A stretch of DNA of 64,000 nt from Marinobacter caseinilyticus (GTDB lineage: Bacteria > Pseudomonadota > Gammaproteobacteria > Pseudomonadales > Oleiphilaceae). The notes under the pieces are model-generated. The model made no database searches, was not told the origin of the DNA, and saw nothing but the letters and a program-made list of their open reading frames with translations. The DNA is taken from NCBI RefSeq assembly GCF_011074955.1, contig NZ_WUQJ01000004.1:62001-126000 (forward strand), in the 5' to 3' direction. How positions within the stretch are numbered: the stretch's first letter is position 1; each line of letters starts with the position of its first letter. Positions 6,999 to 64,000 of the stretch are shown piece after piece. The position numbers and the translations under genes were made by a program.

Positions 6999-7026
6999 AA
7001 AAAAAAACCGCCCATAACCAGGGCGG
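6999..7026 (-). terminator. intrinsic terminator between ftsH and folP
   Basis: The minus strand shows CCGCCC, a 7-base loop, GGGCGG and nine T residues. It begins about 60 bases after the ftsH stop and ends about 25 bases before the folP start. It should reduce transcription from ftsH into folP–glmM. Confidence 0.85.
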
Positions 7027-47923: not shown

Positions 47924-48369
47924 GGTCATTTCCCTCGTTGAAATTTTAAGCATTTTGATCATTGCTTTGAACGCGGGCTTACCGGGCTACTATTCGCGCC
48001 AACGGCTCATGAGCTTGCGCATGGACATTGAGTATTGGCTAATTCTTATCATTCGGACACTAACCAAAAGAGCTATTTTCACCTCTCCCCGAGTGTTTTC
48101 TAAGCCGCTTTAAATCCCTCAATGTCGCCATTCGGGCTAGGGCTCAGAAGGCCGTATTTTTTTGAGGCGGGACCGCTATATCGGTGCCCCAACACATAAA
48201 AAGCAAGCAGAACACGCGAACACCTGCCTATCCGCACAACCGATACGCTCTGGCGCTTAAGTTTGGGCGGTCAGAGCCATTAACAGATCCAAAATGGCTT
48301 CTGTTACGAACCTATCTGGACTTGTTCAATCATGTTTTTCCACTTCAAGAAGCAAATGGAGCAAACTCT
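47924..48369. other. divergent intergenic region
   Basis: About 450 bases between the divergent lectin-like and hydrolase genes, presumably holding both promoters. No convincing gene is seen. The hydrolase frame is open here, but its extension lacks family features and precedes the signal peptide. Confidence 0.45.
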
Positions 48370-49427: not shown

Positions 49428-50105
49428 TCAGAGCGCAAACCAGTTCCGTTTAATGGCTTCGTACTGCTCCTTGGTAATTACCCCCTCGGCAGACAAGCGG
49501 CGCATCTCCGAGACCGCCCGTGGAATCCTGCCCTTGCCCTCCGGCAACTGGCGCTGCCCCAAGACAATGCTTGCGCACATGGCCTCGATGAAAGCATTCC
49601 TCTTGATGTCGTCCGACGGCCACGCGTCGATCGTGAACAGAACGACGTCGCTGTTCAGTGCCAGAAACTCAAAACAGTGCCGGTGCCGGCGCAGTGCCAC
49701 TGCAACGAGCACCAGAGCCGCACCGACCGGTGCAATCAGCCACCACCATGAAAGCGGCACAAGGGCAAAGATTGCGGCAGGCAAGATGAGCAGACAGGCC
49801 GCAGCGAACCAGAGTTTGTAGTGGTAGTCCTTGATTTCTCTCGGCTGCGGTTCCACAAACGTCAAATCGATGACCTTTTCTGGCAATTCCTTTTTACGCC
49901 GATGCATCCGGACCGACAGATAATGCCGGTTGAACCGACTGAACAGGGTACTGGTTTTCGCCCGGACACTGGTTTGCCGAAAACGGCTCTCGATTTGCCA
50001 GTTTTCCCGGGCTGGAACGTCCCAACCCGGGCGCTGGAGATCAAGATCGGGGATACCCCAGTTCTCCAGGTCAATGATGTCCGATTGGCCTAATGCAACT
50101 GTCAC
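49428..50105 (-). CDS. hypothetical membrane protein with SHOCT-like C-terminus
   Basis: The 225-aa protein is not recognised. It has a soluble N-terminal half, two adjacent hydrophobic segments (about 100–140, LWFAAACLLILPAAIFALV and the Trp/Ala/Val-rich stretch after it), a basic spacer and a short C-terminal helical pair (MRRLSAEGVITKEQYEAIKR) resembling a SHOCT motif. I chose the GTG at 50105 with GAGAGGAA upstream. A TTG at 50138 would overlap the upstream lipoprotein gene. It lies downstream of that gene on the same strand, so it may be the last gene of the envelope operon. Confidence 0.6.
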   Translation of the reverse strand: MTVALGQSDIIDLENWGIPDLDLQRPGWDVPARENWQIESRFRQTSVRAKTSTLFSRFNRHYLSVRMHRRKKELPEKVIDLTFVEPQPREIKDYHYKLWFAAACLLILPAAIFALVPLSWWWLIAPVGAALVLVAVALRRHRHCFEFLALNSDVVLFTIDAWPSDDIKRNAFIEAMCASIVLGQRQLPEGKGRIPRAVSEMRRLSAEGVITKEQYEAIKRNWFAL

Positions 50106-50118
50106 GGTGTTATTCCTC

Positions 50119-53028
50119 TCAAGGTGCTGGGAGTTCAAATTTGTCCGGGTCGTTGAACAGGTGGGCCCCGCTGTCGAGCCACTCGGCGATCAGGCGCAAT
50201 TCGGCGTCACTGAGCATACCCATGTGATTACGACGGATCTCGGCCGTCGCCGCAGTCTCCACCTGGTATTCATCGTCATCCGGATCGTTATCAAACAGGC
50301 TGAAGAAGCGGGCGCTCGGAATGGCACCGCGTGCGCTCATTAACCGGCGCGCAAAGCAGACACCCGGGTCTGGCAGCACGGTCAGGTCACCCTGAACGCC
50401 TTCCGGACAGGCCCCGTCGACGGTCGGGTCCACTTCTATCCACTCGCCGTTCTCTTGCTTCAGGTAATAGTCGGGATTAAACAGCTGCACATAGGATTCC
50501 AACTGACGTGCGTCCCAGGAGGCATTGCTACTGCCCAGCAACAGCCCCGTGCTGGCACCACCGCCACCGGTGCCGTCCGGGCAGGATTTGCTCTCCGCGG
50601 CACGGTGGCAATTCTGGCAGGACGTCACCACATTCTGGTTCGGATCTATGCGGCAACTGCTCCAGATCGGCTGAATGTGCTCCTGGTAATTGATGGTCGC
50701 CTTGCACTCGCTGGTCCAGTTGGTCAGGCAGGTCGCATCGGTCACCGGCATCGGCGTAGTCAGGCCGGCGTAGGGAACCTCGAACGCCAGGGTCTCATCC
50801 GGGGGGTTGCCCCAGTAATCCTCGTATCGAACCGTATCCGCCCAGGTCGCAGTCAACTGCGCCAGGGAATTCACCAGGGTTTCGGCCATGGTGTCTTTCC
50901 CGTACTGCGCAATGATCGCCGGATTGGCGTTGGGGAACGGCAGGCCCGCGCCGGGCGCACCGGGGTTCGCGGACGCCAGTTCCACATCGGTGCGGGCGTG
51001 CGGGATGTCGACGTCAGGATCATGACAGCCGTAACACTTGAGCACTTCGCCGTCTTCCAGCCGCAGCGAGCGCGGATGCTGGGTCAGGTAGTTGTAGTTG
51101 AAATCCGGTGTCGCAATCAGCTCCACACGCTTGCCGCGCTTGTTGACAACCTCAAAGGTGAAGTTGGTATCGGCCGGCACTTTCACGAGGGCCGAGCCAT
51201 CCGGTTCCACCATCGCGTAGGACAGCACGTCGTAAAGCGCACGGTTGCCTGAGCCAACGAGCGGCGTCAGTCCCAGGGGTGGCTGGGAGCCGTCAGTCGG
51301 GTTCAAAATCTCGTTGGTCAGGATCGCCTGCTCCAGTTCCGGCGGAATACTGCGCTTGCCCAACACCCGGACAAACCGCTCGGAACGGTCGTCCGGAGAG
51401 GTCAGGGAGGGGTCCCGCCGGTTTTCGATACCGCCGTCGTAGAGTTCCGCCATATCTGCGCCGTCCAGGTCGTAAACGCTGCGGATATGGAACAATGCGG
51501 TGTTTTCCTCAAGATTCAGCCTGGGTCGCTCGCCGCTATAGGGCTGCGCCAGTTCGTTATAATCCGCAATCACGATGTCGGTATACAGGGCTCTCTCGAA
51601 GCCTTGAACCACCGGTAAGCGGGTATTTTCATTAGGGTCTACCATCCAGATGCCGTACTGCGGCTCACTGAGGTTATCCACCGTGGACGAGCCTTCGCAG
51701 GCCGCCGTGATAGCAGCGTCAGACGTCAGACACTGGGCCCAACTGCCCAACAATCGGCCCGAGCCATCATTGTAAGGCGCAACGGCGCTGTACCAGCCCG
51801 CCGGAGAGACCTGATTGGGGTAGAAGTTAACCAGTCCCGGCGTCATGGATTCTTCGGCTTCACCGATGACACTCTCATCCACGGGCTTGCCCACGGCAAA
51901 GAAGTTCTGGCTATTGATTTTCACCAGATCGCCACCGTAGATGGGGCTGTAGATGTGGCGCATGACCGTCAGCAGGTTGCCGTCGTCCAGGGGGATCGGA
52001 TCCATGTAGTGGATGAACGAGGCATCAGAAAACGCTTCGCTCAGGCTGCCGAAATACCGGTGCACGTTGCCGCCGTTGGGGGTGATCCGATACATGCTGA
52101 GCACGTCCTCGACGAAAATTCGCTCACCGTCAACCGCGCTCGCCAGCGACGCGCCGCACTTGTCTTCGACAGTCCATTCCTTGGGCTGTTCCAGCCCCGA
52201 CGGGAACTTGCCGCCGTTGCCCTGACCGAAACCGCCACCGTGGGGCTGCTGGTTAAAATTGGGGTCATCGATGTTGTCCAGGGTGCAATCCTGGAGCGTC
52301 TCATAGATGCGGCCGAAACGAATGAAGACGACGTGCCCGTCGTTCATGGTGCTGGGCTCAATATCGTGGAACTGGCCAAAGGTGATCTGGGTCAGCTCGG
52401 TGCCGTCCATATTCATGGAGTGCAGCAGGGATGCCGGTTCATTGAAGTCTTCCAGGTATTCCCGAAGATCAAGGATCCGCCAATCACCCCGCGAGTACTG
52501 CCGGGATGACGAGAAGATGATTTTCCCTTCATTGGTGTACGTGGGATTGGTATCCTCCCCGGCATTGGCCAGATCATCCGCCGCCAGAACCCGGCGTACC
52601 CGCCCGGTGACAAACGAATACTCGTAGATGTTCCAGGTACTGTGCGCATCACTGCCGGCCGGACCGTGGGCCGCAAAGACCATTCGCTCTCCGTCGGGAG
52701 ACACATCCAGGTCCTTCACATCGTAGGCACCGCCAAAATAGCCACCCAGGACATTGCGCTCACTGGAGCTCAGGGCGATGCGGTCACGCACCAACAGTTG
52801 AGCACCCGGATTGAACGCGTAAGGTGCGCGCGGGTCCAGAGGCGGCCGGATATTCAGGGACGATGTGTCGCCCATGTCCGGATAGTCCCTGACCACGTAG
52901 GCAAAAGGCTGATCAGAGAGCATGTTCTGCTCGTTATCGCTGAGCTCGCCCTCAATGCAGCCGCTCAACCCTGTTATGACCATGCCGGCCAGAATCAGGC
53001 CGCCCACCTTGCCGCGTAATTTATTCAT
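50119..53028 (-). CDS. HzsA-like lipoprotein with beta-propeller and two heme c motifs
   Basis: The 969-aa protein has a lipoprotein signal with lipobox GLSGC (C24). PD40/TolB-like propeller repeats follow (VSPDGERMVFAA, TYTNEGKIIFSS, MNDGHVVFIR). The region after about residue 640 resembles the hydrazine synthase alpha-subunit middle domain family and carries two CxxCH heme c sites, C665–H669 (CYGCH) and C804–H808 (CQNCH). It should be a periplasmic or surface-exposed, lipid-anchored cytochrome-like protein. Hydrazine synthesis is not implied. It lies 70 bp downstream of the AgmX-like gene on the same strand. Confidence 0.8.
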   Translation of the reverse strand: MNKLRGKVGGLILAGMVITGLSGCIEGELSDNEQNMLSDQPFAYVVRDYPDMGDTSSLNIRPPLDPRAPYAFNPGAQLLVRDRIALSSSERNVLGGYFGGAYDVKDLDVSPDGERMVFAAHGPAGSDAHSTWNIYEYSFVTGRVRRVLAADDLANAGEDTNPTYTNEGKIIFSSSRQYSRGDWRILDLREYLEDFNEPASLLHSMNMDGTELTQITFGQFHDIEPSTMNDGHVVFIRFGRIYETLQDCTLDNIDDPNFNQQPHGGGFGQGNGGKFPSGLEQPKEWTVEDKCGASLASAVDGERIFVEDVLSMYRITPNGGNVHRYFGSLSEAFSDASFIHYMDPIPLDDGNLLTVMRHIYSPIYGGDLVKINSQNFFAVGKPVDESVIGEAEESMTPGLVNFYPNQVSPAGWYSAVAPYNDGSGRLLGSWAQCLTSDAAITAACEGSSTVDNLSEPQYGIWMVDPNENTRLPVVQGFERALYTDIVIADYNELAQPYSGERPRLNLEENTALFHIRSVYDLDGADMAELYDGGIENRRDPSLTSPDDRSERFVRVLGKRSIPPELEQAILTNEILNPTDGSQPPLGLTPLVGSGNRALYDVLSYAMVEPDGSALVKVPADTNFTFEVVNKRGKRVELIATPDFNYNYLTQHPRSLRLEDGEVLKCYGCHDPDVDIPHARTDVELASANPGAPGAGLPFPNANPAIIAQYGKDTMAETLVNSLAQLTATWADTVRYEDYWGNPPDETLAFEVPYAGLTTPMPVTDATCLTNWTSECKATINYQEHIQPIWSSCRIDPNQNVVTSCQNCHRAAESKSCPDGTGGGGASTGLLLGSSNASWDARQLESYVQLFNPDYYLKQENGEWIEVDPTVDGACPEGVQGDLTVLPDPGVCFARRLMSARGAIPSARFFSLFDNDPDDDEYQVETAATAEIRRNHMGMLSDAELRLIAEWLDSGAHLFNDPDKFELPAP

Positions 53029-53098
53029 GATCTTTCTCCCAACCTGCACTGCAGCAGGCAATCGGTCGCGGCCAGTAACAGCCGCAACCGGTTGTCCA

Positions 53099-54046
53099 TC
53101 AACCAGGCATGAAATCGAACTTGTAGTTAACCGGTGTTGCCTGAACGTCCTCCGGACCGAAGGAAATCATCTGGATCCGGGCGAGCAGTTTCAGCGCCAG
53201 CTTCTTGTCTTCCAGTTGGCTATCCACCAGTTTGATGCTGGAGATGCTGCCATCCGGCTCAATCACTATGTGGAAAACAAACTTACCCTGAAGCCCCGGA
53301 TCACTGCGCAACGCGCGGTTGTACAGGGCATAGATTGCGCCTTTGTGCTGTTCGAACACCCTCCGGATGGACTCCATGTCACGGCCGCCATCAACGCTTG
53401 AACGATGGGAGCCACCGCCGCTGCTGCTGCCGCCACCGCCACCTGTTCCACTGCCGATCGGGCTTTCAACCGCGGTAGAGGAATGGGCTGCGAGTTGCGT
53501 GCCGCTGCCAGAGTCGTTCATTACCGAGCTGTTCACACCGCCGCTGGTCTTGGTCGCCGAAGTGGCACCGAGTACCGAGCGCGCGGCCTTGGCCGCCGCA
53601 CCGGTGGTCACATTGGTGTTACGAGCCTGTAGCTTGGCCACATTCAGAGAACTGCGCAGGGATGACAGTTCCTTGGAGAAGGCTGCCACGCCCATTTTGG
53701 ACACCTTTTCGCGGGCCTTTTTAACTTCCTTGGCGGGCGCGGGTTTCGGTGCGGCCTTCTTTTCGGTCGGTTCCGGTTCTGCTTTTTCCTCCTGCCTCAC
53801 CGGTTCCGGTGGCGGCGGCGGTGGCACGACCTTACGTTGCTCAATGAGGACTTTGGCGAGGCTCGGTGGCAAACGCTCTTTTTCCTCACGTTCAATTTCC
53901 GGTAAAGGTAGCCACGGAAAAATGACCGCCAGCAACAGAAGCAGCAGCAACAGGCGTTTGAGTATCCGCTTGAAGCGACTGTCCTCTTCGTCACTGGCTT
54001 CCCAGGGCAAAGCGAACTCGTAGTGTGTGATTGTCAAAGCTGTCAT
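53099..54046 (-). CDS. AgmX/PglI C-terminal domain, TonB-like energy transducer
   Basis: The 315-aa protein has a short cytoplasmic N-terminus, one transmembrane helix (about 30–46, LLLLLLLLAVIFPWLPL), a Pro/Glu/Lys-rich periplasmic linker with PPPPPPEPVR, a Gly/Ser-rich stretch (about 200–225) and a C-terminal AgmX/PglI domain (about 225–315: IRRVFEQHKGAIYALYNRAL, GKFVFHIVIEPDGSIS). This resembles the Myxococcus AgmX/GltJ C-terminus and TonB. It probably transmits motion from the ExbB/ExbD-like channel to outer-membrane partners. It follows the second exbD-like gene by 12 bases. Confidence 0.82.
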   Translation of the reverse strand: MTALTITHYEFALPWEASDEEDSRFKRILKRLLLLLLLLAVIFPWLPLPEIEREEKERLPPSLAKVLIEQRKVVPPPPPPEPVRQEEKAEPEPTEKKAAPKPAPAKEVKKAREKVSKMGVAAFSKELSSLRSSLNVAKLQARNTNVTTGAAAKAARSVLGATSATKTSGGVNSSVMNDSGSGTQLAAHSSTAVESPIGSGTGGGGGSSSGGGSHRSSVDGGRDMESIRRVFEQHKGAIYALYNRALRSDPGLQGKFVFHIVIEPDGSISSIKLVDSQLEDKKLALKLLARIQMISFGPEDVQATPVNYKFDFMPG

Positions 54047-54058
54047 CGATCCCCTCCG

Positions 54059-54562
54059 TCAGGCGCCGCTGTTGCCGGAAACGCGTGAAACGGCCATGGA
54101 AAGGTCCCGATAATCCGCCTTTGCACAGGTCAGCATCACCCGCTTCAGGAGTTCGTAGGGAATTTCCTGGTCACCCAGAATAGTTACCGCCCGGCCCAGG
54201 GTTTTCTCACGCTCGGTCAGTTCGGAGCGCTTGCTGGCCTGGAAACGGAGTTCCTCCATCAGGCCATCAATCAGGCCATTGGACACGATCACCTCGTTGA
54301 TGGACGCCACCGGCCGACCATCCACCAGGATGTCATCCTCGGTGATCATCACCACGGTGGTCTCTTTCGGACGCTCTTCCGCTGTGGAATCGGGCAGGAC
54401 CACGTCGTTGACCTTGAGGATTTCATTGCTGCCGGAGTTGAGCAGCAAAAAGAACACCAAAATGGTAAAGATGTCCATCAGCGACACCAGGTTCAGCTTC
54501 GCCGGTTTCATGAATGTTTTCTGGCTGCCCTTGAGGCCGAATGAAGTCAGTTTGTCGTTCAT
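54059..54562 (-). CDS. ExbD/TolR-like protein (second copy)
   Basis: The 167-aa protein has one N-terminal transmembrane helix with the conserved aspartate (LVSLMDIFTILVFFLLL, D near 30) and a periplasmic ExbD/TolR domain. Such proteins form the rotor or plug of proton-driven 5:2 channels with ExbB/TolQ/MotA. It starts inside the stop of the first exbD-like gene (ATGA, four bases), so the two are translationally coupled. Two different ExbD-like proteins with one ExbB mirrors AglR–AglQ–AglS in Myxococcus. Confidence 0.88.
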   Translation of the reverse strand: MNDKLTSFGLKGSQKTFMKPAKLNLVSLMDIFTILVFFLLLNSGSNEILKVNDVVLPDSTAEERPKETTVVMITEDDILVDGRPVASINEVIVSNGLIDGLMEELRFQASKRSELTEREKTLGRAVTILGDQEIPYELLKRVMLTCAKADYRDLSMAVSRVSGNSGA

Positions 54563-55089
54563 GACTTCCCTCCTTTCTTCGGCGCATCCCCGAGGGAGAT
54601 TTCCGGAAACAGTTCCACGTCCACCGCTTCGGCAACGACAACCGTCTTGGCGGAACGTAAGGTATCCATGGTGGACACCAGGGACTGATAGGTAACCCCC
54701 GGTTCAGACAGCAACAGGACGTCTTTCTTGTCGATGCTCTTGGCGGCCAGTCGGCGCTTGATCTCCATCAGGGCATTGGATAAGGCCCGGAAATCATGGC
54801 GCGCCGCCTTGCCATCGTCCGTGGCTTCAACCTTGTCGATGGTTTTCACCAGGTTGCCACTGGGGTAATACACCTCGATGACGGCTTCCCGCACAACCAC
54901 CTCCAACTGCCGGTTGTCCTCAGCACTGGCGGTCTGGGCGCCGGTCAGGTCCGGCAGGTTGAGCTCGAGAATCGAGATGTGGTTGAACACCATGCTCATC
55001 AGCAGCACCGGCACCAGGACGATCATGAGGTTCATGAACGCGGTGATATCAATGTCCGGCTCTTCCAGTTCTCTGCGTTTTGTAAACAT
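54559..55089 (-). CDS. ExbD/TolR-like protein (first copy)
   Basis: The 176-aa protein has one N-terminal transmembrane helix with an aspartate (DIDITAFMNLMIVLVPVLL) and a periplasmic domain containing ELNLPDL. The C-terminal part reads DVLLLSEPGVTYQSLVSTMD, an ExbD-type pattern. It lies 19 bp downstream of the ExbB-like gene and overlaps the second copy. It differs clearly from that copy, so the two may occupy distinct positions in a heterodimer. Confidence 0.88.
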   Translation of the reverse strand: MFTKRRELEEPDIDITAFMNLMIVLVPVLLMSMVFNHISILELNLPDLTGAQTASAEDNRQLEVVVREAVIEVYYPSGNLVKTIDKVEATDDGKAARHDFRALSNALMEIKRRLAAKSIDKKDVLLLSEPGVTYQSLVSTMDTLRSAKTVVVAEAVDVELFPEISLGDAPKKGGKS

Positions 55090-55108
55090 AACAAATTACC
55101 CGCTTGGA

Positions 55109-55774
55109 TCAGGCGTCGGATTCACGCGTGTTAACAGAACGACGGTTGCTGCGAACGATGGTGTTCATGGCTTTCACTCCCGCCATCTCAATGCTCTCAA
55201 CAATTTCCAGCGTCTTGTTCTGCAACAGTGAGTGGATCAGCAGCAGCGGAATGGCGGCGATCAGACCAAACGCCGTCGTGTTCATGGCGACTGATATCGA
55301 CTGCGACAGCAGGGTGGCCTTGTCAGCCGGATCCGCGTTGGCAACCGCGGTAAACGCAGCAATCAGACCGATGATGGTGCCGAGCAGACCCAGCAGCGTC
55401 GACACGTTGGCGAGGATGGCCAGATAGTTGGTGCGTTTGGAAAGGCGCGGAATACTTTCCATCACGCCTTCCTGCATCGCGGCATGAATGTCATCCCGAC
55501 GAGGAGACGAGCGCATAGTGTCCAGTGCCACCGCAATGAGGCGGCCAATAGCGGAACCGTTGTCCTGTGCCACTTGCTCGGCCTCGTCGAACTTCTTCTC
55601 GTTCATCAGCGGCAACAGTTGGGTGTAGGCTTTTTTGTTGGAATGATAGGCCCGCTTGAGGAAAATCCACCGTTCCGCCGAAATGGCAAGACCCACCATC
55701 AGAACTAGTGCAATTGGGAACATGAAGGCTCCGCCTTCCTGGAAGAATGAAACTATGCTTGAGTAAAAATTCAT
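55109..55774 (-). CDS. MotA/TolQ/ExbB-like proton channel
   Basis: The 221-aa inner-membrane protein has three transmembrane helices (about 16–34, 118–141 and 165–187), with the conserved LLGLLGTIIGLIAAF of helix 2 and SVAMNTTAFGLIAAIP before helix 3. It should form a pentameric proton channel that powers work across the envelope with the two ExbD-like partners encoded next. The start MNFYSSIVSFFQEGG matches the family's N-terminal periplasmic helix. Confidence 0.92.
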   Translation of the reverse strand: MNFYSSIVSFFQEGGAFMFPIALVLMVGLAISAERWIFLKRAYHSNKKAYTQLLPLMNEKKFDEAEQVAQDNGSAIGRLIAVALDTMRSSPRRDDIHAAMQEGVMESIPRLSKRTNYLAILANVSTLLGLLGTIIGLIAAFTAVANADPADKATLLSQSISVAMNTTAFGLIAAIPLLLIHSLLQNKTLEIVESIEMAGVKAMNTIVRSNRRSVNTRESDA

Positions 55775-55825
55775 GTCAGGTACTCCACACGTCGCTGTTT
55801 GATTAATTCGTTTTTGGTGTTTGCT

Positions 55826-56125
55826 TTACTCGGCCGGGCCTGCGGGCACTTCCAGAGAAAGTTCGTCGTAGAACCTCATGGTTCTTGCGTGAACATCCCG
55901 GTCCACCACTTCAAACACCCTGCCGGACACAGAGGTGATTGAACGGTAGAGCCGTTCCGGCCCTTCCGGCGGTTTCCACGGGATGAAATAACTGACTGAA
56001 GGTTGCTCCTTGTCACCGACAAAGGTGCTCTCCAGGTCAATGTCCTCCTGTCCCAGGGCGGTCTGCGCCAGGGCCAGGGACACAAAGGCGGTGATAACGG
56101 CAAGCCGTGATCTGAATATTGTCAT
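55826..56125 (-). CDS. small exported protein
   Basis: The 99-aa protein has a signal peptide (MTIFRSRLAVITAFVSLALA, cleaved near QTALG-Q), leaving a soluble periplasmic domain of about 75 residues. No family is recognised. It sits 51 bases before the ExbB-like gene and 9 bases after the TPR lipoprotein gene in the same operon, so it is probably a periplasmic accessory of the machine. Confidence 0.65.
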   Translation of the reverse strand: MTIFRSRLAVITAFVSLALAQTALGQEDIDLESTFVGDKEQPSVSYFIPWKPPEGPERLYRSITSVSGRVFEVVDRDVHARTMRFYDELSLEVPAGPAE

Positions 56126-56134
56126 GACACTCTC

Positions 56135-56995
56135 CTAGCCGTTCTCTTCGGTTTGTTCTGCGGCCGGACTTTTGTCCGCCGCCATCGGCTCGGAAGCCGC
56201 CGCTTCACCGGTGGTTTCTGGTGGCGGCGGCGGAATGTCGATGAAGCTGGTTTCAATGCCGGTCCGGCGCCGGACCTCAATCAACCAGTCAGCCACTCGC
56301 GGATCTTCATCGCCGACCAGGAATTGGTAAGCCTCGTAATGGGGCTGCGCCTTCTTCGGCTGGTTCAGGTAGAGGTCATACAGAATGGCCAGGTTCAGGT
56401 GGGCACCGGGAAAGTCACTCCAGAGCTGGAGGGCCGACAGATAGGTTGCCCGGGCACCGTCAAAGTCACCCGTCCGGCGCTGGAACAGCGCCAGGGACAG
56501 GTAGGCATTTACGTTGTCTGGATTGACCTCGAGCGCCTTGCGGTATGACTTCTCGGCCCGCTCCATCCGCTCTCCGATTTCCGCCAGCTCACCCAGCTTG
56601 ACCCAGGGCCCGGACAAGTCCGGATAATCACGGGTGATGGCCTCAAAGGCCTTGCGGGCATCCCGATGCTGCTCTTCCACCATTAGTTCGTTGGCACGCT
56701 GGAACCGGGCGATCACTTCGGATGGCACAGCAACGGGCGCGGTGGTGTAGGGATTGGGTGCTGGAACATAGGTCACTTTTTCTCCTTGGGCATCGTAGGC
56801 CTGGCGTGGGAGATACCGATGCTCCGATCCCGGAGCAGACTCAACTTGAGTGACCGCAGCGGCCACAACGTCCACTTCCGGTTTTTCCGGAGCGGAGACG
56901 GGGTCGTTCATTGAACCCAGCCCGGCACAGCCAGAAAGCAGGATTGTCGTGATCAGTGCGCCTCTGCGCGCGGGATTAACGAATACCATCGCCAT
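56135..56995 (-). CDS. TPR lipoprotein
   Basis: The 286-aa lipoprotein has a signal peptide ending in lipobox LLSGC (C23), a Pro/Val-rich linker and at least three TPR units (about 100–230: ARKAFEAITRDYPD, AEKSYRKALEVNPDNVNAY, ARATYLSALQLW). A disordered Pro/Ala/Glu tail follows. TPR arrays serve as scaffolds. Its start overlaps the stop of the upstream TPR gene by 20 bases. An alternative ATG two codons downstream exists. It is part of the ExbB/AgmX operon. Confidence 0.82.
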   Translation of the reverse strand: MAMVFVNPARRGALITTILLSGCAGLGSMNDPVSAPEKPEVDVVAAAVTQVESAPGSEHRYLPRQAYDAQGEKVTYVPAPNPYTTAPVAVPSEVIARFQRANELMVEEQHRDARKAFEAITRDYPDLSGPWVKLGELAEIGERMERAEKSYRKALEVNPDNVNAYLSLALFQRRTGDFDGARATYLSALQLWSDFPGAHLNLAILYDLYLNQPKKAQPHYEAYQFLVGDEDPRVADWLIEVRRRTGIETSFIDIPPPPPETTGEAAASEPMAADKSPAAEQTEENG

Positions 56996-59804
56996 ACGCC
57001 ACCTGTACTTCCTGTTTGTCGAATCGTGCCGGGTTCAGCTTCGCCATAGCGCCAAAGCTTCGTTCAATCCAGGGGTTGAACATGCCCCCCCAGGAACGGT
57101 CGATGTTGGCCTGATGCACTTCAATCGCGAGATCTTCAAAGGGAATGGCCTGTTCTTCGAGCACCAGCTCGTATTGCATGACTTCCAGTTCGCTCAGGCC
57201 CTTGGGTCTGGGTGCGTCCATGAGTTCCCTGGCAAACTGCCCGTACAAGTCGGCAATGTTGAAAGTGGCCCGAGTGGTCTGATCCAGCACACTGTATTCG
57301 ACCGCCTGCTGGTAACGATCAAGCGCGTTCTTCATCTTTTCATTCTTGCGGGGAATGCTCTTGTTCAAAGGATGACGGAGCCGGACCCGATCGAACTCGG
57401 TACGCCAGTAATCGCCGTATTCGTTGTTTGCCCAGGCTGCCAGCCAGGACGAGCGATCGCTCTGCCAGTTGGATGGCGCCTTGTCGTGGCCATCGATCAC
57501 CCGGCGCAGCCAGTACAGATGACGGTTGAGATCATCCACGCGCTTGTAGAGGTAGGCCACGTGGTAACGGGCTTCCATCCGGGTATCAAACGGTTCTTCG
57601 TAATCAAACGCCCATTTCTTGAAGTAGGTGAGTGCCTGTTCATCATCGCCGGCCTTTTCATACAGCTCGGCGGACAGAAACAGTGCGTCCCGCCGGGTCG
57701 TCGCCTTGGCATCGCTCCGGTAGATGGCGTCATACTCACGTGCCGCCAGCAGCCACTGCTCGTCCTGCTCGTAGGCCCAGGCGATCTTCTGGGGCAGGTC
57801 TGCCGCCAGCTTGTGGTTCGGGAACAGGCGACGCAGTTCGTTCATCTCCGCCAGCGCAGGGTCCCAGTCTTCCAGGGTCAGCAGATGGGTAGCGGCATCA
57901 AATTGAGCAATCACGCGGACATCGGTATTGGGGGCCACGTTCTTGATACGCAGGAACTGTTCGACAGCACCGGCCAGATCTTTCGCCGCCAGGGCCTGTT
58001 CGCCCTGTTTGTAGATGGTGACCGCCATACGCTCGGTGACTCCGTCATACTCCTGGTCGGCGGTGTCGATGTAACGGAGTTGATTGCGATAGCCGGTTTC
58101 TGCGGCGGGAAAATCACCCAGTTCGTACTGACTGTGCGCGATGACACCCCAGGCCGTTCGATTGAGCTCGCGATCCACGTCGCCGTCGCGGCTGACGATG
58201 CCGGTGGCCACTTCAAGGGCTTTTTCATACCGCCCGAGCGCAAACAGTTCTTCAGAGGTTTTGGCCAGTACCGAACCGGAACGTTCGTCATCCCGGAACG
58301 CCTGCACAAAACGCAACTGACTGTCGACGCCTTTGCTGCGCCAGGCGCGCAGCTGTTCACTGCCCTCACCGGCCGTTGCCATCAGGCGCTCGGCCTCTTT
58401 CTGGTAGGCGATGATGGCCGCGTAGCCCGCATCGGCCCCGAAGCCGGAGGTCTTGAATTCGTAGGCGGTGCGTTCGTAGTGGGTGATGGAGGTCGGATAA
58501 TCGCCGCCATCGAAGGCCGCTTCCGCGCGCATGTACACCATTTCCGGCACTTTCGGGTCATCCGGAAAGGTCTGCTCAAATTCACCGTAGAATTCGGACG
58601 CTTTCAGGAAGCTGGCACGCTGCTCGGCAACACTGGCCACCGCGCCTTCAGCCAACTCACGCTTCAGGCGTTGTCCGGTGGCATGATAATGCCGGGCCAG
58701 TTCCTCAATGTAGGTCTTGATATTGGGTATGACTTTGGCACGGATATCTGCGGGCTTGGTCTTCCAGAACTCGGAGCGGATGCCATAGTTTTGGACGTAG
58801 GTTTCCTTCTCAGGCAGTACCTGCTGGGAAAACTCGCCATCCACGTAGGCGCGGATCATGTCCGCATGCATCTCCGGAGCCCGGTCAGAGTCCGGGTTCT
58901 GTACCACGAATGCCCGGAATGACGACGCCGAATCCTCGTACCGCTCCTTCTCGAGGTAGTGCTTGCCCAGACTCGAGTAAAGAATCCAGGTGTATTTCGC
59001 ACTCGCTGGACGCTGGGCAAACATGCTGTCGATCTTCGTCGCGCCACCGGCATAGGCCAGCCCCACACTCATGATTCTCAGCGTGTCGTCGACCAGCGAA
59101 CGGTTAACATTATCCAGCTTTTCGATCTTGCCATCTGCCGGCACCAGCCGGTCCAGCACCTGCGAAAATGCCATCAGGCTGTTGTCGTAATCCGACAGCT
59201 TGTACTGGGACCAGCCCAACAAGTAGTACGAATTGTTCAAAAACACCGAATCCTGGCCCAGGTTGATGACCGCCTGATAAGCCTGCTCCGCGTCCTCGTA
59301 CTCTTCGTGCCGGAAATGAATATCGCCCTTGCGGAAATAGACCTCGGCCAACCGCCCGGACTCTGAATGATCCTGGATGAATTGCTTGAGAACCGCCTTC
59401 GCGTCCTGGTCACGGCCGTCCAGGTCATAGGCCTTGGCCAACTGGTACATGGCCTCGGCATTGTCGCTGGAGTCCGGATATTTCTTCAGCAGCTCCTGGT
59501 AGGCAGTAATGGCATCCGGGAAATAGCCCTTATCTCCAGGCAACACGTCGATAAGCTGGTTGTAGTCACCTTCGAGCATGTAGACGCTGGCAATACGGCG
59601 CTCAATCTGCTCCTTGAGTTTCCGGTCCTCAATGGTTTTCAACAGCTCCCGATACTCACGGCGAACGTCCTCGTGCATCACACGGGGCAACGGTATGTCC
59701 GCCAAGGGCTGATGGCTATCCTGTATACGACCAATAGTCTTACCGTCGTCGAAGCCGGCGCAACCGCTGAGCAATAGCGCAAGCACTAGAATATTAGATC
59801 GCAT
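56976..59804 (-). CDS. large TPR outer-membrane lipoprotein
   Basis: The 942-aa lipoprotein has lipobox LLLSGC (C15) and many TPR-like repeats along most of its length (for example AITAYQELLKKYPDSSDNAEAM and AEQAYQAVINLGQDS). The frame runs 36 codons further upstream into the previous gene. I chose the ATG at 59804 because AGGGG precedes it by 6 bases and it opens a perfect lipoprotein signal. It is probably anchored in the outer membrane facing the periplasm as a scaffold. It overlaps the 583-aa TPR gene by 11 bases. Confidence 0.85.
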   Translation of the reverse strand: MRSNILVLALLLSGCAGFDDGKTIGRIQDSHQPLADIPLPRVMHEDVRREYRELLKTIEDRKLKEQIERRIASVYMLEGDYNQLIDVLPGDKGYFPDAITAYQELLKKYPDSSDNAEAMYQLAKAYDLDGRDQDAKAVLKQFIQDHSESGRLAEVYFRKGDIHFRHEEYEDAEQAYQAVINLGQDSVFLNNSYYLLGWSQYKLSDYDNSLMAFSQVLDRLVPADGKIEKLDNVNRSLVDDTLRIMSVGLAYAGGATKIDSMFAQRPASAKYTWILYSSLGKHYLEKERYEDSASSFRAFVVQNPDSDRAPEMHADMIRAYVDGEFSQQVLPEKETYVQNYGIRSEFWKTKPADIRAKVIPNIKTYIEELARHYHATGQRLKRELAEGAVASVAEQRASFLKASEFYGEFEQTFPDDPKVPEMVYMRAEAAFDGGDYPTSITHYERTAYEFKTSGFGADAGYAAIIAYQKEAERLMATAGEGSEQLRAWRSKGVDSQLRFVQAFRDDERSGSVLAKTSEELFALGRYEKALEVATGIVSRDGDVDRELNRTAWGVIAHSQYELGDFPAAETGYRNQLRYIDTADQEYDGVTERMAVTIYKQGEQALAAKDLAGAVEQFLRIKNVAPNTDVRVIAQFDAATHLLTLEDWDPALAEMNELRRLFPNHKLAADLPQKIAWAYEQDEQWLLAAREYDAIYRSDAKATTRRDALFLSAELYEKAGDDEQALTYFKKWAFDYEEPFDTRMEARYHVAYLYKRVDDLNRHLYWLRRVIDGHDKAPSNWQSDRSSWLAAWANNEYGDYWRTEFDRVRLRHPLNKSIPRKNEKMKNALDRYQQAVEYSVLDQTTRATFNIADLYGQFARELMDAPRPKGLSELEVMQYELVLEEQAIPFEDLAIEVHQANIDRSWGGMFNPWIERSFGAMAKLNPARFDKQEVQVAYGDGIR

Positions 59805-61545
59805 GATCATCCCCTTCTTCACCGGCAGAGGCTGCCTCTGCCTCCACTTCAGCCCCGTCCAGGGTCTGCAGGGATCGATCAAGAATCCGAACTTTGGCCA
59901 ACTGGGCTTCAACCTGATATTGCTTCAGCCGCTGCTCGTGGATATCCAGCTCGGTAGACACGAGCGTGCGCATGACGTCTTCAAGCCTGACGACCAGGCT
60001 TTCCGTATGCACCATCTCCGCGTCTACCTGAGCCATCATGCGAACCACGCCCTGCTCAAAATCAGCCCCGTCAGACAGCTCGCCGGCGCCATTCACCGCC
60101 TGCAACATCTGCTCGCCGCGGGTAATATCGAACGCCAGCTCGTCCAGCTGCCACTGAAGCTTTTCCCGATCTTCCGGTGCAAGCGCCAACATGCGCGTCG
60201 ACAACCTCTGTTTCTGTTCGCGGCTCTGTGACAACTGACGACCGAGCCCCGCCAGTGCCATACCGTGGCTTTCGCCGTCCAGGCTGCCGGCTCTTGCGGC
60301 CAGAATCACATCAAAGTCGTTCCGGCGGGCTTGCCAGCGCTCAAGGTTGTTGCGAATGGCGTAAAGGTCCCGCAGATCCTTGAGCAGGGATTGGAAACTG
60401 TGGTCCGACATCAACTCCACCAAAAATGGCGACAGGTGATTCACTGACACTGACGGTGCCTGACCGAACCAGTCGCTCTCGCCAAGGACCTCGTCAAGAT
60501 TTTGGACGAACAACTCCATGACATCGGCATGACCAAGGGACTGCCGGGCTTTGTCCAGCCAGTCCAGAGCATCACGAAATTTGCTGTCGGCCTCGATAAA
60601 CCCCTGCGCAGCACGGCCGTTTAACCCCAGTTGTTCGTATACATGGGGCTGCAAAAGAGTGGCTTCCTGAACTTCCGGCAACGCAATAGAACGTTTCGCC
60701 AGCTCATTCAACGGACCCAGGGCATCCCGGAACGCCCCGTCGTTAATCGCCATCCAGCTCGCACCGAGCAGGCCTCGGTTGGAATAGGCGCCGGTACTGC
60801 TGATACGGGACAACTGCAGGCCGGCGTTGACCTGGTCTTCCCGACGAGAGTAGAGGAAAGACAGCGCCATTCGCGCCCGGTCCGCCAGACGCCGGAGCTC
60901 CTCACTGCCATCATTGAGGGCAATGACTTTTTCCAGGGCAGCAATGGCGCGGTCTGATTCTTCCTGAGCACCAAAGGCAATGGCCAGGTTGAAATAAAAG
61001 TAAGGTGCGAACGGGCTGTCTATGTCGATGGTGTCGGCGACGGATTCACCCGCAGAAAAGTAGCCGAGCTTCACATTGACCAGCGCAGCGAGGTAACGGT
61101 ATTCGGCGTCAACCGCCTCTGGAAGGCCGCCCTGAACGTTCCCAAGGTTGGTGGCAGCGGCGTTGGTATCGCCCCGCAGGTATTGCATTTTCCCGAGGTA
61201 AAACCAGGCCCGGTTGCGAACCTCCTCCGTCAGGTTGCCACGGGCAACGCGGCTGAAGATTTCTTCAGCTTGCGTATCGAGACCATAGGACAGACTGACC
61301 CCCCCTTTGAGCAGCTCAGGATAAGTGCCGTGATTCTGGACACCGCCCTTTTCTTCCGCCCACGCATACTCGACCAACGCTTCGAAGTAGTGCTGTTGGT
61401 AGAACTCGAACAGAATGGCGCCGTACTTAAGGTCATGTACTTCCGTGACGGCCGATGCGGTGCCACTGTGGCTGGCCAGCACGCCAGTGGTCAGGCACAG
61501 GATGACTTGCCGGAACATCCGGCTGGCGGAGTGACGACGCGACAT
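59794..61545 (-). CDS. exported TPR protein
   Basis: The 583-aa protein has a signal peptide (about 1–32, FRQVILCLTTGVLASHSGTA), TPR-like repeats (about 40–330) and a long C-terminal coiled coil (about 400–565). The last residues are acidic (AEAASAGEEGDDHAI). The family is not recognised beyond its repeats. It is the second gene of the minus-strand operon, 3 bases after the coiled-coil protein gene and overlapping the next gene, so its product probably assembles with the other TPR proteins. Confidence 0.8.
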   Translation of the reverse strand: MSRRHSASRMFRQVILCLTTGVLASHSGTASAVTEVHDLKYGAILFEFYQQHYFEALVEYAWAEEKGGVQNHGTYPELLKGGVSLSYGLDTQAEEIFSRVARGNLTEEVRNRAWFYLGKMQYLRGDTNAAATNLGNVQGGLPEAVDAEYRYLAALVNVKLGYFSAGESVADTIDIDSPFAPYFYFNLAIAFGAQEESDRAIAALEKVIALNDGSEELRRLADRARMALSFLYSRREDQVNAGLQLSRISSTGAYSNRGLLGASWMAINDGAFRDALGPLNELAKRSIALPEVQEATLLQPHVYEQLGLNGRAAQGFIEADSKFRDALDWLDKARQSLGHADVMELFVQNLDEVLGESDWFGQAPSVSVNHLSPFLVELMSDHSFQSLLKDLRDLYAIRNNLERWQARRNDFDVILAARAGSLDGESHGMALAGLGRQLSQSREQKQRLSTRMLALAPEDREKLQWQLDELAFDITRGEQMLQAVNGAGELSDGADFEQGVVRMMAQVDAEMVHTESLVVRLEDVMRTLVSTELDIHEQRLKQYQVEAQLAKVRILDRSLQTLDGAEVEAEAASAGEEGDDHAI

Positions 61546-61548
61546 GGC

Positions 61549-62232
61549 TTACCACTCCCGAACGGAGAATTCCGCCTGCTGCCGTGCTTCGGAATCGGCA
61601 ATACTCAGCTCGACATACTTCGGACCTTGCCCTTTGGTGAAACGGAGACTGCTGCCCTGCTTATATTCACGGCCGTTGGGCCCCTGTCCGATAAAGAACG
61701 CGGACAACGTGTGCTCGCCGGCACTGACGTTGCCCATGTGCAGGCGATGCATACCGCCTTTAGCCAGGGCCTGGCGCTCGTCTTCGCTGTACAGATACGA
61801 GGTGACGGTTTCATTGTCCAGCCGCAGCTCAACGCCTTCCAGGCGGAAAAACTCACCGACGTTCAGGGACAGGAACACGTGAAACCGGGTATTCGCCGGA
61901 AACAGCAGGTCTTCTTCCAGAACCCTCAGATTCTTATTAAGCACCACGACGGACTGCTTCAGGCCTTGAATATCCCGGGACAGTTCGTTCACGGCACGCT
62001 GAGCCCGTTCCCGGCTCTTGCGAACCGACAATGGCGTTTCGATGATCTGGTCGAGCGCTGCCGCAGGGGCACCTGCCGCTGCCCTGTCGCGGTTTTCGGC
62101 CGTGTCTTCGCTGGCCACTGCGTGGCTGCCACAGACCGCCCATAGAACCACGGCCAGAAAAACGGACAGCGTTCTGCGCGATTGGATGTTTGCTGACCTG
62201 CGACCAGATCCCTGCTTTTGAAAAGTCACCAT
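61549..62232 (-). CDS. exported protein with coiled coil and beta-rich domain
   Basis: The 227-aa protein has an N-terminal hydrophobic segment (about 22–40, LSVFLAVVLWAVCGSHAVA) as signal or anchor, a coiled coil (about 70–105, RERAQRAVNELSRDIQGLK) and a beta-rich C-terminal domain (about 115–225). No family is recognised. GGAGC lies 4 bases before the ATG at 62232. The frame is open 13 codons upstream. It is the first gene of the long minus-strand envelope operon, divergent from the outer-membrane barrel genes. Confidence 0.72.
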   Translation of the reverse strand: MVTFQKQGSGRRSANIQSRRTLSVFLAVVLWAVCGSHAVASEDTAENRDRAAAGAPAAALDQIIETPLSVRKSRERAQRAVNELSRDIQGLKQSVVVLNKNLRVLEEDLLFPANTRFHVFLSLNVGEFFRLEGVELRLDNETVTSYLYSEDERQALAKGGMHRLHMGNVSAGEHTLSAFFIGQGPNGREYKQGSSLRFTKGQGPKYVELSIADSEARQQAEFSVREW

Positions 62233-62613
62233 CTTGCTCCTGGGCCAGGACGCCGGTGTGGCGCTGACCAATAACCGTGAACAATCAGGGGACGGACTTT
62301 TGAGTTGTCTGATTTTGTCCGGAGAGCTCTTTTGTTTGCGGCTCGGTTTTTAGCGGACGATCAGTTTTCTAGGGAATTGTTTCATTCGTTAAATACTGTC
62401 AAATAAGCTAGCACAAGAATTCATTAATGGAACGGCTAATTTTTTATTGAATTGGATTCTGTGATCCACTGCTCGAAATTGAATGCGGGCTATTGCCCAA
62501 TGGCAAAGCGGTCGTCAGAGTCGCTCTTGCGAACCCATTTTTTTTCAATAAAAACATATATTTACAATATTTTACACAATTTTACACAAGCAAAAAGCAT
62601 CGGTTCCATAGTT
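62233..62613. promoter_or_regulatory. AT-rich divergent control region of the envelope cluster
   Basis: About 380 bases with unusually high AT content separate the two divergent transcription units and must hold both promoters. Three direct repeats at 62561–62590 lie close to the plus-strand start. The plus frame is open through this region, but the signal peptide sets the start at 62614. Confidence 0.55.
62561..62590 (+). repeat. three 10-bp direct repeats upstream of the barrel gene
   Basis: TTTACAATAT, TTTACACAAT and TTTACACAAG follow one another with a period of exactly 10 bp, close to one helical turn, ending 24 bases before the start codon. They could be an activator or repressor array. 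Confidence 0.6.
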
Positions 62614-63417
62614 ATGACCGCGATCACAAATACGAACATCAGGGGTCCGTCCCTGTTTTCAGGAAGCCTCAGCCGGGACATCGTGTTCTCAATGGTATTG
62701 CTGACGCTTCCGCTGTCCCACGTCGGCGCTCAGACCGCCTTCGACGATGACAGTGCGGTACTTGAAGTAGTCGATCCGTTCATCGAGCTTCATACCGCGC
62801 CGGGCCGTGGTTATCCCGTGTTTCATGTCATCGAAAAGGGCGAACAGGTCGAACTCCTCAAACGCAAAACGAACTGGTACAAAGTGCGCTCCACAACGGG
62901 CGAGGAAGGCTGGACAAAAGCGGCCCAACTGGGCCACACGCTACAGCCCACCGGGCTGCCAGCGGATCTTCCGGAGGTCGGGCATGGGGAGTACCTGGCC
63001 TCAAACTGGCGGGTTGGCTTCACCACCGGTGTGTTTGAAAAATCCGCAAGCTTCAGTCTGACCCTTGGTTACCGCCCTCTCACCTGGATGGGCGCAGAGC
63101 TCGAAGCTGGCAAGATATACAACCAGTCCGTTACCAGTGACTACTACAGCGCCAACCTGATCTTCGAGCCGTTTCATCGCTGGAAGCTGACGCCTTACGC
63201 GCTGGTGGGGGTGTCACGATTTTCCTTCGACGCCCGTCAGAAAGTCTTGCTGGGCGATCTCGGCGACGCCGATGCCCTGGCCTTCGGCGGCGGCCTTAGT
63301 TACTACATCGGACGAAACTTCCTGGTTCGGGCCGAGTACCGGCTGTACTCGGTATCTTCCAATTCAGACAGCACAGGCTTAAGCGAATGGAAAATCGGAT
63401 TGAACACCTTCTTCTAA
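62614..63417 (+). CDS. SH3-domain outer-membrane beta-barrel protein
   Basis: The 267-aa protein has a signal peptide (about 1–40, ending LPLSHVGA-Q), a bacterial SH3 domain (about 45–105: VVDPFIELHTAPGRGYPVFHVI, with EQVELLKRK and WYKVRSTTGEEGW) and a C-terminal eight-stranded-type barrel of alternating aromatic strands ending in LNTFF, typical of outer-membrane proteins. The SH3 domain may bind peptidoglycan. Its stop overlaps the start of the next barrel gene (TAATG). The ribosome site is weak. Confidence 0.8.
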   Translation: MTAITNTNIRGPSLFSGSLSRDIVFSMVLLTLPLSHVGAQTAFDDDSAVLEVVDPFIELHTAPGRGYPVFHVIEKGEQVELLKRKTNWYKVRSTTGEEGWTKAAQLGHTLQPTGLPADLPEVGHGEYLASNWRVGFTTGVFEKSASFSLTLGYRPLTWMGAELEAGKIYNQSVTSDYYSANLIFEPFHRWKLTPYALVGVSRFSFDARQKVLLGDLGDADALAFGGGLSYYIGRNFLVRAEYRLYSVSSNSDSTGLSEWKIGLNTFF

Positions 63418-64000
63418 TGCCAGCACTGACTGGTATACGGTCTGGAAAAGCGCTGTTACTGGCGTGTTTGTTGATGCTGCCACAACTGTCGGCGGCCCAG
63501 GCATCCGGCGATACGACAAAACCGGCTCCGATTCAGGTTATTACGCCAGAAGTAGAGCCCCGCACTATCCGCGAAGCGGATATTGACGCGGAGTTCTTCG
63601 AAATCGGTGTTTTTGGTGGACTGATGAGCATTGACAACTTCAGCAGCGAGCCGTTGCTGGGTGTCAGTGCCGCGTTCCACGCCACCGAGGACTTTTTCCT
63701 GCAGTTCAACTATGGTTTCACCGAGGCTGGCCTGACCTCCTTCGAGGAACTCAGCGGCAGCAATGTACGCCTGCTAACGGACTCGGATCGAGAATACAGC
63801 TACTACGATTTCCTGGTGGGCTATAACATCTTTCCGGGCGAGATCTTCTTCAGCGACTCGCTGACGTTCAACTCGGCCTTTTATCTGGTCGGGGGTGTTG
63901 GAAACACCGAGTTCGGGGGAGAAAACAATTTCACCACCACCCTGGGCACAGGCTTCAGAATCGTGTTGCTGGACTGGCTGACCGTACACGTTGATTTTCG
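63417..64000 (+). CDS. outer-membrane beta-barrel protein, partial (OMP_myx_plus-like)
   Basis: The frame opens at the ATG at 63417 and runs off the right edge after 194 codons. A signal peptide (MPALTGIRSGKALLLACLLM, cut near LSAAQA) is followed by a linker and aromatic-rich amphipathic strands (FFEIGVFGGLMSIDNF, FFLQFNYGFTEAGL, YYDFLVGYNIFPGEIFF). This fits the outer-membrane barrel domain family found in Myxococcales and some other Proteobacteria. It overlaps the SH3-barrel gene by one base and belongs to the same transcript. Confidence 0.8.
   Translation, partial: MPALTGIRSGKALLLACLLMLPQLSAAQASGDTTKPAPIQVITPEVEPRTIREADIDAEFFEIGVFGGLMSIDNFSSEPLLGVSAAFHATEDFFLQFNYGFTEAGLTSFEELSGSNVRLLTDSDREYSYYDFLVGYNIFPGEIFFSDSLTFNSAFYLVGGVGNTEFGGENNFTTTLGTGFRIVLLDWLTVHVDF

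Follow-up and report, generated by a model that had tools for sequence, protein, structure and literature searches.

What work does an envelope-spanning motor of the Myxococcus gliding type perform in a bacterium that is not known to glide? The question is raised by a locus of Marinobacter caseinilyticus in the 64,000-nucleotide stretch analyzed here (contig NZ_WUQJ01000004.1, positions 62,001 to 126,000; hereafter the window). Nine tightly packed genes on its minus strand (53099-62271), whose neighbors are separated by no more than 51 bases where they do not overlap, encode in order of transcription a protein that we call Coil, three proteins in the positions of GltC, GltD and GltE, a 99-residue protein, an ExbB-like channel, two ExbD-like proteins (ExbD-a and ExbD-b) and a GltG-like protein. 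Two outer-membrane barrels, OMP1 and OMP2, are encoded divergently on the plus strand (Table 1). An earlier, sequence-only reading of the window had proposed a proton-driven machine related to the Agl/Glt proteins of Myxococcus, and profile searches bore out its list of parts: the channel in the place assigned to it, two distinct ExbD-like proteins, an AgmX/PglI-type TonB-like protein, three TPR proteins of which two (GltD and GltE positions) carry an LSGC lipobox, tight packing with overlaps, and divergent barrels.

Nine genes in one order

A genome collection was scanned with peptide patterns of the window ExbB, and the best 80 of 81 matches were kept, giving 78 loci from Marinobacter, Hahella, Alteromonadaceae, Cellvibrio, Woeseiaceae, Oceanospirillaceae, Pleionea, Steroidobacteraceae and others; the ExbB of Marinobacter sp. 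F4218 is 94% identical to that of the window. We considered as untruncated the 64 of the 78 fetched loci in which exbB lies no earlier than position 7000 and its start is followed by 2700 bases or more. The nine genes have identical order and strand in 64/64 of them, including L045 and L047, where GltE and GltD share one reading frame and were scored as in order. This arrangement is more than chance. Being built on window ExbB patterns, with the best 80 of 81 matches kept, the scan favors close relatives; many loci are such relatives, so that alignment rows are not independent. The family profiles came from matches in the same loci, and weak members were thus found partly by construction, which does not affect gene order and strand. 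The GltD-position family is present in 75 of 80 loci examined.

The machine looks uncommon, because among 398 sampled Pseudomonadota genomes just 15, that of the window being one of them, have the AgmX/PglI domain above its cutoff. At E 0.001 there are matches in 147 of the 398, which we take mostly for TonB.

Two unlike ExbD subunits

At the column of the proton-site Asp, ExbD-a has Asn in 80 of 80 aligned rows and ExbD-b has Asp in 79 of 79. The ExbD-a rows comprise the window, L004 and L005 from the same genome, and 77 of the 78 loci (L080 is cut off); the ExbD-b alignment is without L080 and L065. The Asp was also seen in ExbD-b of 13 of the 15 clusters from the 398-genome sample, the other two of which end before the helix; the loci of this sample are too short to cover the membrane helix of ExbD-a and contribute no ExbD-a rows. 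Two further ExbD/TolR-like proteins of the window's genome carry the Asp, two more having scored too low to align. In a distant relative of the machine on the Vibrio alginolyticus plasmid pMBL96 (L131:1-20594), the corresponding residues, read from the sequences, are Ser in ExbD-a and Asp in ExbD-b.

The Asn of ExbD-a is the same change that disables AglQ in Myxococcus, where proton conduction, gliding and sporulation are all reported to be lost with Asp28Asn (PMC3858216). In contrast to the window set, both AglQ and AglS of M. xanthus have the Asp, according to a review that is the sole source for this point (PMC9389320). With Asn in ExbD-a and Asp in ExbD-b, the motor therefore looks asymmetric, and the simplest reading of the alignments is that the two ExbD subunits of the motor differ and that one of them would carry protons. 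For the Agl motor, the pair of MotB-like subunits has been proposed to represent possibly two coupled units, in a paper that gives the proton site as shown to be essential for AglQ only (PMC9120999). The invariant Asp/Asn pair bears on that proposal and offers a natural experiment on the need for two proton sites in 5:2 motors.

A PDB sequence search with ExbB returned ExbB and TolQ chains only. Another exbB-like gene with two tandem exbD-like matches is found elsewhere in the genome (contig C25:215566-216811); this set exceeds the Pfam cutoffs and scores poorly with the profiles of the window family.

Kinship with the Agl/Glt core

The nine-gene set is very probably kin to the Agl/Glt core, and this kinship is not new, as Luciano et al. 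described the same clustered core in 2011. Their "Group B core complex," found in Gammaproteobacteria, Geobacter and Fibrobacter, groups GltD, GltE, GltG, GltC, AglR, AglQ and AglS, to which one or more extra genes are added; they termed its function unknown, named two Marinobacter genomes that have the core, with duplications, and reported binding between AglR and GltG of Myxococcus in a two-hybrid assay (PMC3169522). The window locus likewise unites counterparts of the seven core genes in one cluster outside Myxococcales, with one channel, two ExbD-like proteins and genes in the positions of gltC, gltD and gltE, and its GltG homologue has the AgmX/PglI C-terminal domain. It is a member of a known, uncharacterized kind. 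Set against the text description of Group B, our analysis adds Coil, the 99-residue protein, the invariant Asn of ExbD-a and named outer modules; at least one of Coil and the 99-residue protein may be the extra gene of Luciano et al. We did not find the invariant Asp/Asn pair, the extra conserved components or a list of the varying outer modules in the open-license literature.

Likeness to individual Glt proteins, which the sequence-only reading had also expected, was borne out for GltG and weak for GltC and GltD (27 GltG-like, 25 GltC-position, 16 GltD-position and 19 GltE-position members were scanned). The NF033760 GltG model matches all 27 GltG-like members, and the TonB C-terminal model TIGR01352 matches 14 of them. 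In the window protein the GltG match is limited to residues 422-628 of 650 and reaches 33.3 of 650 bits, far below the equivalog cutoff, so that the N-terminal part of GltG has no counterpart; a partial GltJ match covers residues 413-671 of 671. The M. xanthus AglRQS-GltA-K system thus has the core parts and the AgmX/PglI domain in common with the window set, whose GltG-like protein is shorter; neither GltG nor GltJ is matched over its full length with the N-terminal region. Of the 25 GltC-position members, one is matched by the NF033756 GltC model (E 0.001). The GltE model NF033758 matches 18 of 19, no better than other TPR families, as the PilW and PrsT models match 19 of 19; for the window protein it is below its cutoff and is not the best model. 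No GltD model was among the matches of the 16 members scanned. It is mostly by place in the cluster and by TPR content that the GltC, GltD and GltE proteins are assigned. Among the proteins of the window, and with such adventurous-gliding models as NCBIfam offers, no match at E 0.1 or better was obtained other than those to GltG, GltE and part of GltJ.

We also placed the channel in a tree of 39 cluster ExbBs (36 of the 78 locus ExbBs and three copies of the window's genome) and five of the eight other PF01618 proteins of that genome. The cluster ExbBs lie apart from these five paralogues, but the dividing branch is weakly supported (36/69) and the five outsiders are on very long branches. The window set shares its motor families, PF01618 and PF02472, with TolQR-TolA and ExbBD-TonB. 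It differs from them by the TPR set, by an extra ExbD without Asp and by scores below the equivalog cutoffs, both for uptake (exbB, 54.3 of 206.2 bits; ExbD_2, 21.1 of 123.45) and for Tol (tolQ, 57.3 of 221; tolR, 20.7 and 21.3 of 127.3); the TonB models also stay below their cutoffs (tonB_Cterm, 13.5 of 27.1 bits; TonB_C, 19.6 of 24.6). The GltG matches, the ExbB split, the unreached uptake cutoffs and the gene set of Luciano et al. together argue against an ordinary TonB-ExbB-ExbD system devoid of Glt likeness.

Further conserved components

The 99-residue protein is a conserved member of the gene set. Its family alignment of 65 rows has G37, E40, P42, P49, W50, R76 and R81 among the columns conserved in at least 90%, and it matched nothing in Pfam or NCBIfam. 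The sequence-only reading had also called accessory proteins exported; the 99-residue and GltC-position proteins do have signal-like N termini by eye, yet a simple hydropathy scan flagged neither. In the GltE-position family, Cys23 is invariant in the alignment.

Coil is present in all 64 untruncated loci and is a candidate for the additional gene of Luciano et al. Its AlphaFold2 model (mean predicted local distance difference test score [pLDDT], 84.8) gives weak matches to transthyretin-like folds; Foldseek found no match at E 0.001 or better, and VIA-align gave a Z score of 9.2 at best and mostly below 8, a range in which, as the tool warns, a match may reflect just a common arrangement. NCBIfam yielded no match for Coil and a PDB profile search had a best E of 0.68. 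The GltG-like protein has a short N terminus, one membrane helix, a Pro-rich linker and the AgmX/PglI C-terminal domain. When used as a single sequence in a PDB search it gave chance-level matches only, and as a profile it matched two TonB chains weakly.

Varying outer modules

What surrounds the nine genes varies. At the window locus the module consists of OMP1, OMP2 and probably a lipoprotein with CxxCH motifs at residues 676 and 815. The OMP1 model is an 8-stranded OmpA/OprF-like barrel (mean pLDDT, 76.7) whose best match is the N-terminal barrel of OprF (E 6.3e-7), and relatives of both OMP1 and OMP2 score above 100 bits in 34 of 80 loci examined. The lipoprotein gene closely follows the GltG-like gene, and its relatives adjoin the cluster in 26 of the 78 loci, a set in which the contig sometimes ends too early; the gene set therefore probably extends beyond 53099 to take in the PD40/HZS_alpha lipoprotein. 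A 236-residue family, for which no Pfam or NCBIfam family exceeded its cutoff, follows the lipoprotein gene in 15 Marinobacter and Hahella loci.

In the Alteromonadaceae, the genes ahead of Coil, all on its strand, are those of OMP1, OMP2, a redoxin, a lipoprotein of the DUF4266 type and a DUF3570 protein, with OMP1 beyond the fetched stretch in some loci. The flavin-type module (redoxin, DUF4266, DUF3570) stands between OMP2 and Coil, for example at L028:1349-3250. One [S/T]GA[S/T] site is kept in 13 of 14 linked DUF3570-family proteins, and flavinylation of this motif has been demonstrated in DUF3570 (PMC8238504); the accessible parts of that paper mention neither gliding nor ExbB. A small lipoprotein of the DUF4266 kind that ends in a CGC motif occurs in 4 of 4 loci examined, one of them Pfam confirmed. 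Among 43 genomes (44 loci) hand-picked from the 78 loci, 40 have DUF3570 somewhere in the genome; in 15 it is no more than 12 kb from exbB, and in 4 more the distance is 18 to 20.4 kb. In the 398-genome sample, DUF3570 is found in 11 of the 15 AgmX/PglI-positive genomes against 17 of the 383 others (p 3e-11, kinship ignored), and the two genes are not always physically linked in the positives. A redoxin family adjoins the cluster in 30 loci and an ApbE family in 13 (one member of each was scanned).

A fibro-slime-type protein stands beside OMP2 in six loci of the Thalassolituus/Oleispira type (among them one record filed under Thalassobium and one as unclassified), and TIGR02148 confirms five of the six. 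The fibro-slime domain exceeds its cutoff in 10 of 50 core-bearing genomes hand-picked from the 78 loci, the window's genome among the 50, against 2 of the 398 sampled Pseudomonadota. The neighbors of the pMBL96 cluster are two proteins annotated as Ig-like (immunoglobulin-like), an OmpA-type protein and a LapG-like protease that scores below the LapG cutoff.

Upstream of the cluster, a protein with a twin-arginine-like start (by eye) recurs at L051:863-2464, L057:194-1930 and L067:3-1595; the one member scanned had no NCBIfam match.

Other copies in the genome and the genus

The window's genome has a second complete nine-gene cluster (contig C21, L119:8249-19493). It adjoins a gene whose relative in L068 matches VWA/CoxE, a family also found beside seven other loci, and a gene for a MoxR-type ATPase, recognized by eye. 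A third locus (contig C5, L120:8488-10378) has exbB, an exbD-a with the Asn and exbD-b only, without TPR or GltG genes; this motor-only locus resembles the extra Agl set MXAN_3003-5 of Myxococcus. Across 37 Marinobacter genomes, the window's own included, a GltD-like protein of the window type (76 to 100% identity) occurs in 6 and one of a 32 to 36% type in 14, never both; a more distant type (about 25 to 30%) occurs in 29, and 7 genomes lack any match at E 1e-20. An exbB copy that possibly belongs to the 32 to 36% type lies 7.3 to 7.5 kb from a DUF3570 gene in two other Marinobacter genomes (G438 and G440). In M. atlanticus, a TonB-C gene beside two exbD genes and one exbB, which may or may not be part of a cluster of the window type, was lower in a rubredoxin mutant (PMC8233155). 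A proteomic study of Thalassolituus on alkanes detected a TonB receptor and, in the parts accessible, made no link to a cluster of the window type (PMC6304351).

Proposed function and its alternatives

The reading that we favor, with a confidence that stops somewhat short of probable, is that of an envelope-spanning, proton-driven Agl/Glt-type machine that would not propel the cell but pull, place or move proteins of the outer membrane or the surface, with which the cell could attach to solid substrates or work on them. By homology, ExbB, ExbD-a and ExbD-b would form the inner-membrane motor, of presumed stoichiometry, and protons would be taken up through ExbD-b because ExbD-a has Asn at the proton site. 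The work of the motor would pass to the GltG-like protein, which with its Pro-rich linker and AgmX/PglI domain may cross the periplasm to the TPR proteins, two of which, being lipoproteins, are presumably in the outer membrane. The TPR proteins, Coil and the 99-residue protein would in turn couple to an exchangeable outer module, in this strain OMP1, OMP2 and probably the lipoprotein with two heme-type motifs. We count in favor of this model the domains and lipoboxes, the nine-gene synteny, the GltG model matches, the Asn/Asp pattern and the varying outer modules, along with the fibro-slime proteins beside OMP2, DUF3570 near exbB and the Ig-like and LapG-like neighbors on pMBL96. Movement of a surface polymer or adhesin, put forward in the sequence-only reading, is a putative role.

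A further clue comes from Fibrobacter succinogenes, in which FSU_2400-2403 (ExbB-ExbD-ExbD-TonB) and adjacent TPR/OmpA proteins are reported to rise on cellulose (PMC6851124, PMC4619616), and FSU_2397 and FSU_2396 to be in complex with cellulases and a fibro-slime protein (Arntzen et al., as cited in PMC6851124). Gene order and the mention of Fibrobacteres by Luciano et al. suggest that FSU_2396-2403 is the Fibrobacter copy of the core. As far as their descriptions can be compared, both have an ExbB, two ExbDs and a TonB-type protein beside TPR proteins, with OmpA proteins in Fibrobacter where the window has OMP1 and OMP2. If the two are the same core, fibro-slime accompanies it in two phyla, which favors work on surface proteins.

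Several observations weigh against this model. No report of a function for any gammaproteobacterial copy was found in the accessible parts of the open-license PMC literature. Domain searches gave neither a fibro-slime nor a DUF3570 match in the window's genome, so that the adhesin clue is an analogy only; the equivalence with Fibrobacter itself would follow from gene order and the statement of Luciano et al., not from sequences compared. A single lineage supplies all cases in which fibro-slime is physically linked to the cluster, and in the evenly drawn sample the domain is found in 1 of 15 AgmX/PglI-positive genomes against 1 of 383 others (p 0.07). Moreover, the flavin-, thiol- and heme-type neighbors point equally to redox work as to adhesion.

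Those redox-type neighbors are the basis of the alternative that the motor powers the assembly, loading or movement of electron-transfer proteins in an outer-membrane redox machine. It can draw on the DUF3570 barrel, DUF4266 and redoxin of the Alteromonadaceae loci with their kept [S/T]GA[S/T] sites and CGC lipoproteins, on the frequency of DUF3570 in core-bearing genomes, on the redoxin and ApbE families beside many loci and on the lipoprotein with two heme-type motifs, which recurs in Marinobacter, Hahella and Thalassolituus-type loci. We nevertheless find it unlikely: the linked DUF3570 proteins are divergent and low scoring, with the high-scoring copies elsewhere in the genomes, the redoxin and ApbE may serve neighboring systems, the window's genome has no DUF3570 match, and its second cluster has no recognized redox neighbor among the long open reading frames inspected by eye. 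Import of a large solute through the neighboring barrels, energized by the motor and the TonB-like protein, is what the authors proposed for Fibrobacter when they read FSU_2400-2403 as TonB-dependent cellodextrin transport (PMC6851124). The weak TonB_C match and the TIGR01352 matches would fit, but this is decidedly improbable for the window set, since no protein of the cluster that was scanned matched a TonB-dependent receptor, OMP1 models as a small OmpA-like barrel, the ExbB, TolQ and TonB cutoffs were not reached, the cluster ExbBs stand apart in their weakly supported split, and uptake leaves the three TPR proteins and the second, Asn-bearing ExbD to be accounted for.

The remaining two alternatives follow from Myxococcus itself. 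There, Agl-Nfs moves the glycan of the spore coat (PMC3858216), and a similar machine could wind or compact exopolysaccharide; we give this little credence, as none of 10 flanking proteins scanned, out of 40 recurring families, matches a polysaccharide-synthesis family. An engine for true gliding, by which the cell is moved over surfaces, would account for the shared core genes, the GltG matches in all members and the placement of OMP2 in an NCBI family named OMP_myx_plus. This is very unlikely, given that we know of no gliding in Marinobacter and that the GltG-like protein covers only the C-terminal part of the model. In addition, the Group A genes of gliding, which encode GltA, GltB, GltF, GltH, GltI, GltJ and GltK, are described as confined to Myxococcales and Bdellovibrionales, and the core alone is held to be insufficient for gliding (PMC3169522).

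A wider version of the favored model, a machine acting on surface proteins, can be put forward. In this version, ExbB would form a pentamer around an obligate heterodimer throughout the family, with ExbD-b as the only proton site and a fixed Asn in ExbD-a, replaced by Ser in the pMBL96 relative, and this asymmetric rotary motor would be an ancestral surface-protein engine with interchangeable fibro-slime, flavin and heme modules, from which gliding arose later; taken as a whole it is possible but doubtful. The task of the core in bacteria without known gliding bears on its ancestral function, which can be addressed by deletion, as the cluster lies in one compact locus and Marinobacter is workable in the laboratory. 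Luciano et al. proposed that Myxococcus gliding grew from this core (PMC3169522).

Gene limits and neighboring genes

The open reading frame of the GltD-position protein opens at 59912, and reading of its start region makes 59804 or 59810 the probable start. A promoter and terminator scan found 3 promoter-like sites and 12 that resemble terminators, in both cases fewer than the mean for shuffled sequence, and is therefore no evidence on the limits of the operon.

Table 1. Genes of the cluster and its surroundings, with positions in the window
Feature	Position	Strand	Characteristics
Coil protein	61549..62271	-	hydrophobic N-terminal segment, 44-residue helix, beta sandwich; start maybe nearer 62232
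GltC-position TPR protein, 583 residues	59794..61545	-	weak TPR matches; signal-like N terminus by eye
GltD-position TPR lipoprotein	56976..59804	-	TPR_6 2.8e-22; lipobox LSGC
GltE-position TPR lipoprotein, 286 residues	56135..56995	-	lipobox LSGC; NF033758 GltE 4.3e-9
99-residue protein	55826..56125	-	signal-like N terminus by eye; conserved directly upstream of exbB
ExbB/TolQ/AglR-like channel	55109..55774	-	PF01618 MotA_ExbB 5.9e-27
ExbD-a	54559..55089	-	PF02472 2e-9; Asn20 at the membrane Asp position
ExbD-b	54059..54562	-	PF02472 3.4e-13; membrane Asp is Asp30
GltG-like TonB-type force transducer (putative)	53099..54046	-	NF033768 AgmX/PglI 3.3e-17, over cutoff; NF033760 1.9e-8
OMP1	62452..63417	+	SH3_3 2.2e-9, OMP_b-brl 8.5e-7; likely start 62614
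OMP2	63387..64000, on to 64088 beyond the window	+	TIGR04565 OMP_myx_plus 8.8e-48, 162 bits against a cutoff of 60
PD40/HZS_alpha lipoprotein, probable associate	50119..53061	-	PF07676 4.6e-7, PF18582 8.8e-6; lipobox
236-residue protein, possible associate	49428..50138	-	gene overlaps the end of the lipoprotein gene

Next to these genes, positions 48184-49323 of the window encode a metallo-beta-lactamase-fold protein that is nearest to quorum-quenching lactonases of the AidB type (196 of 360 bits).

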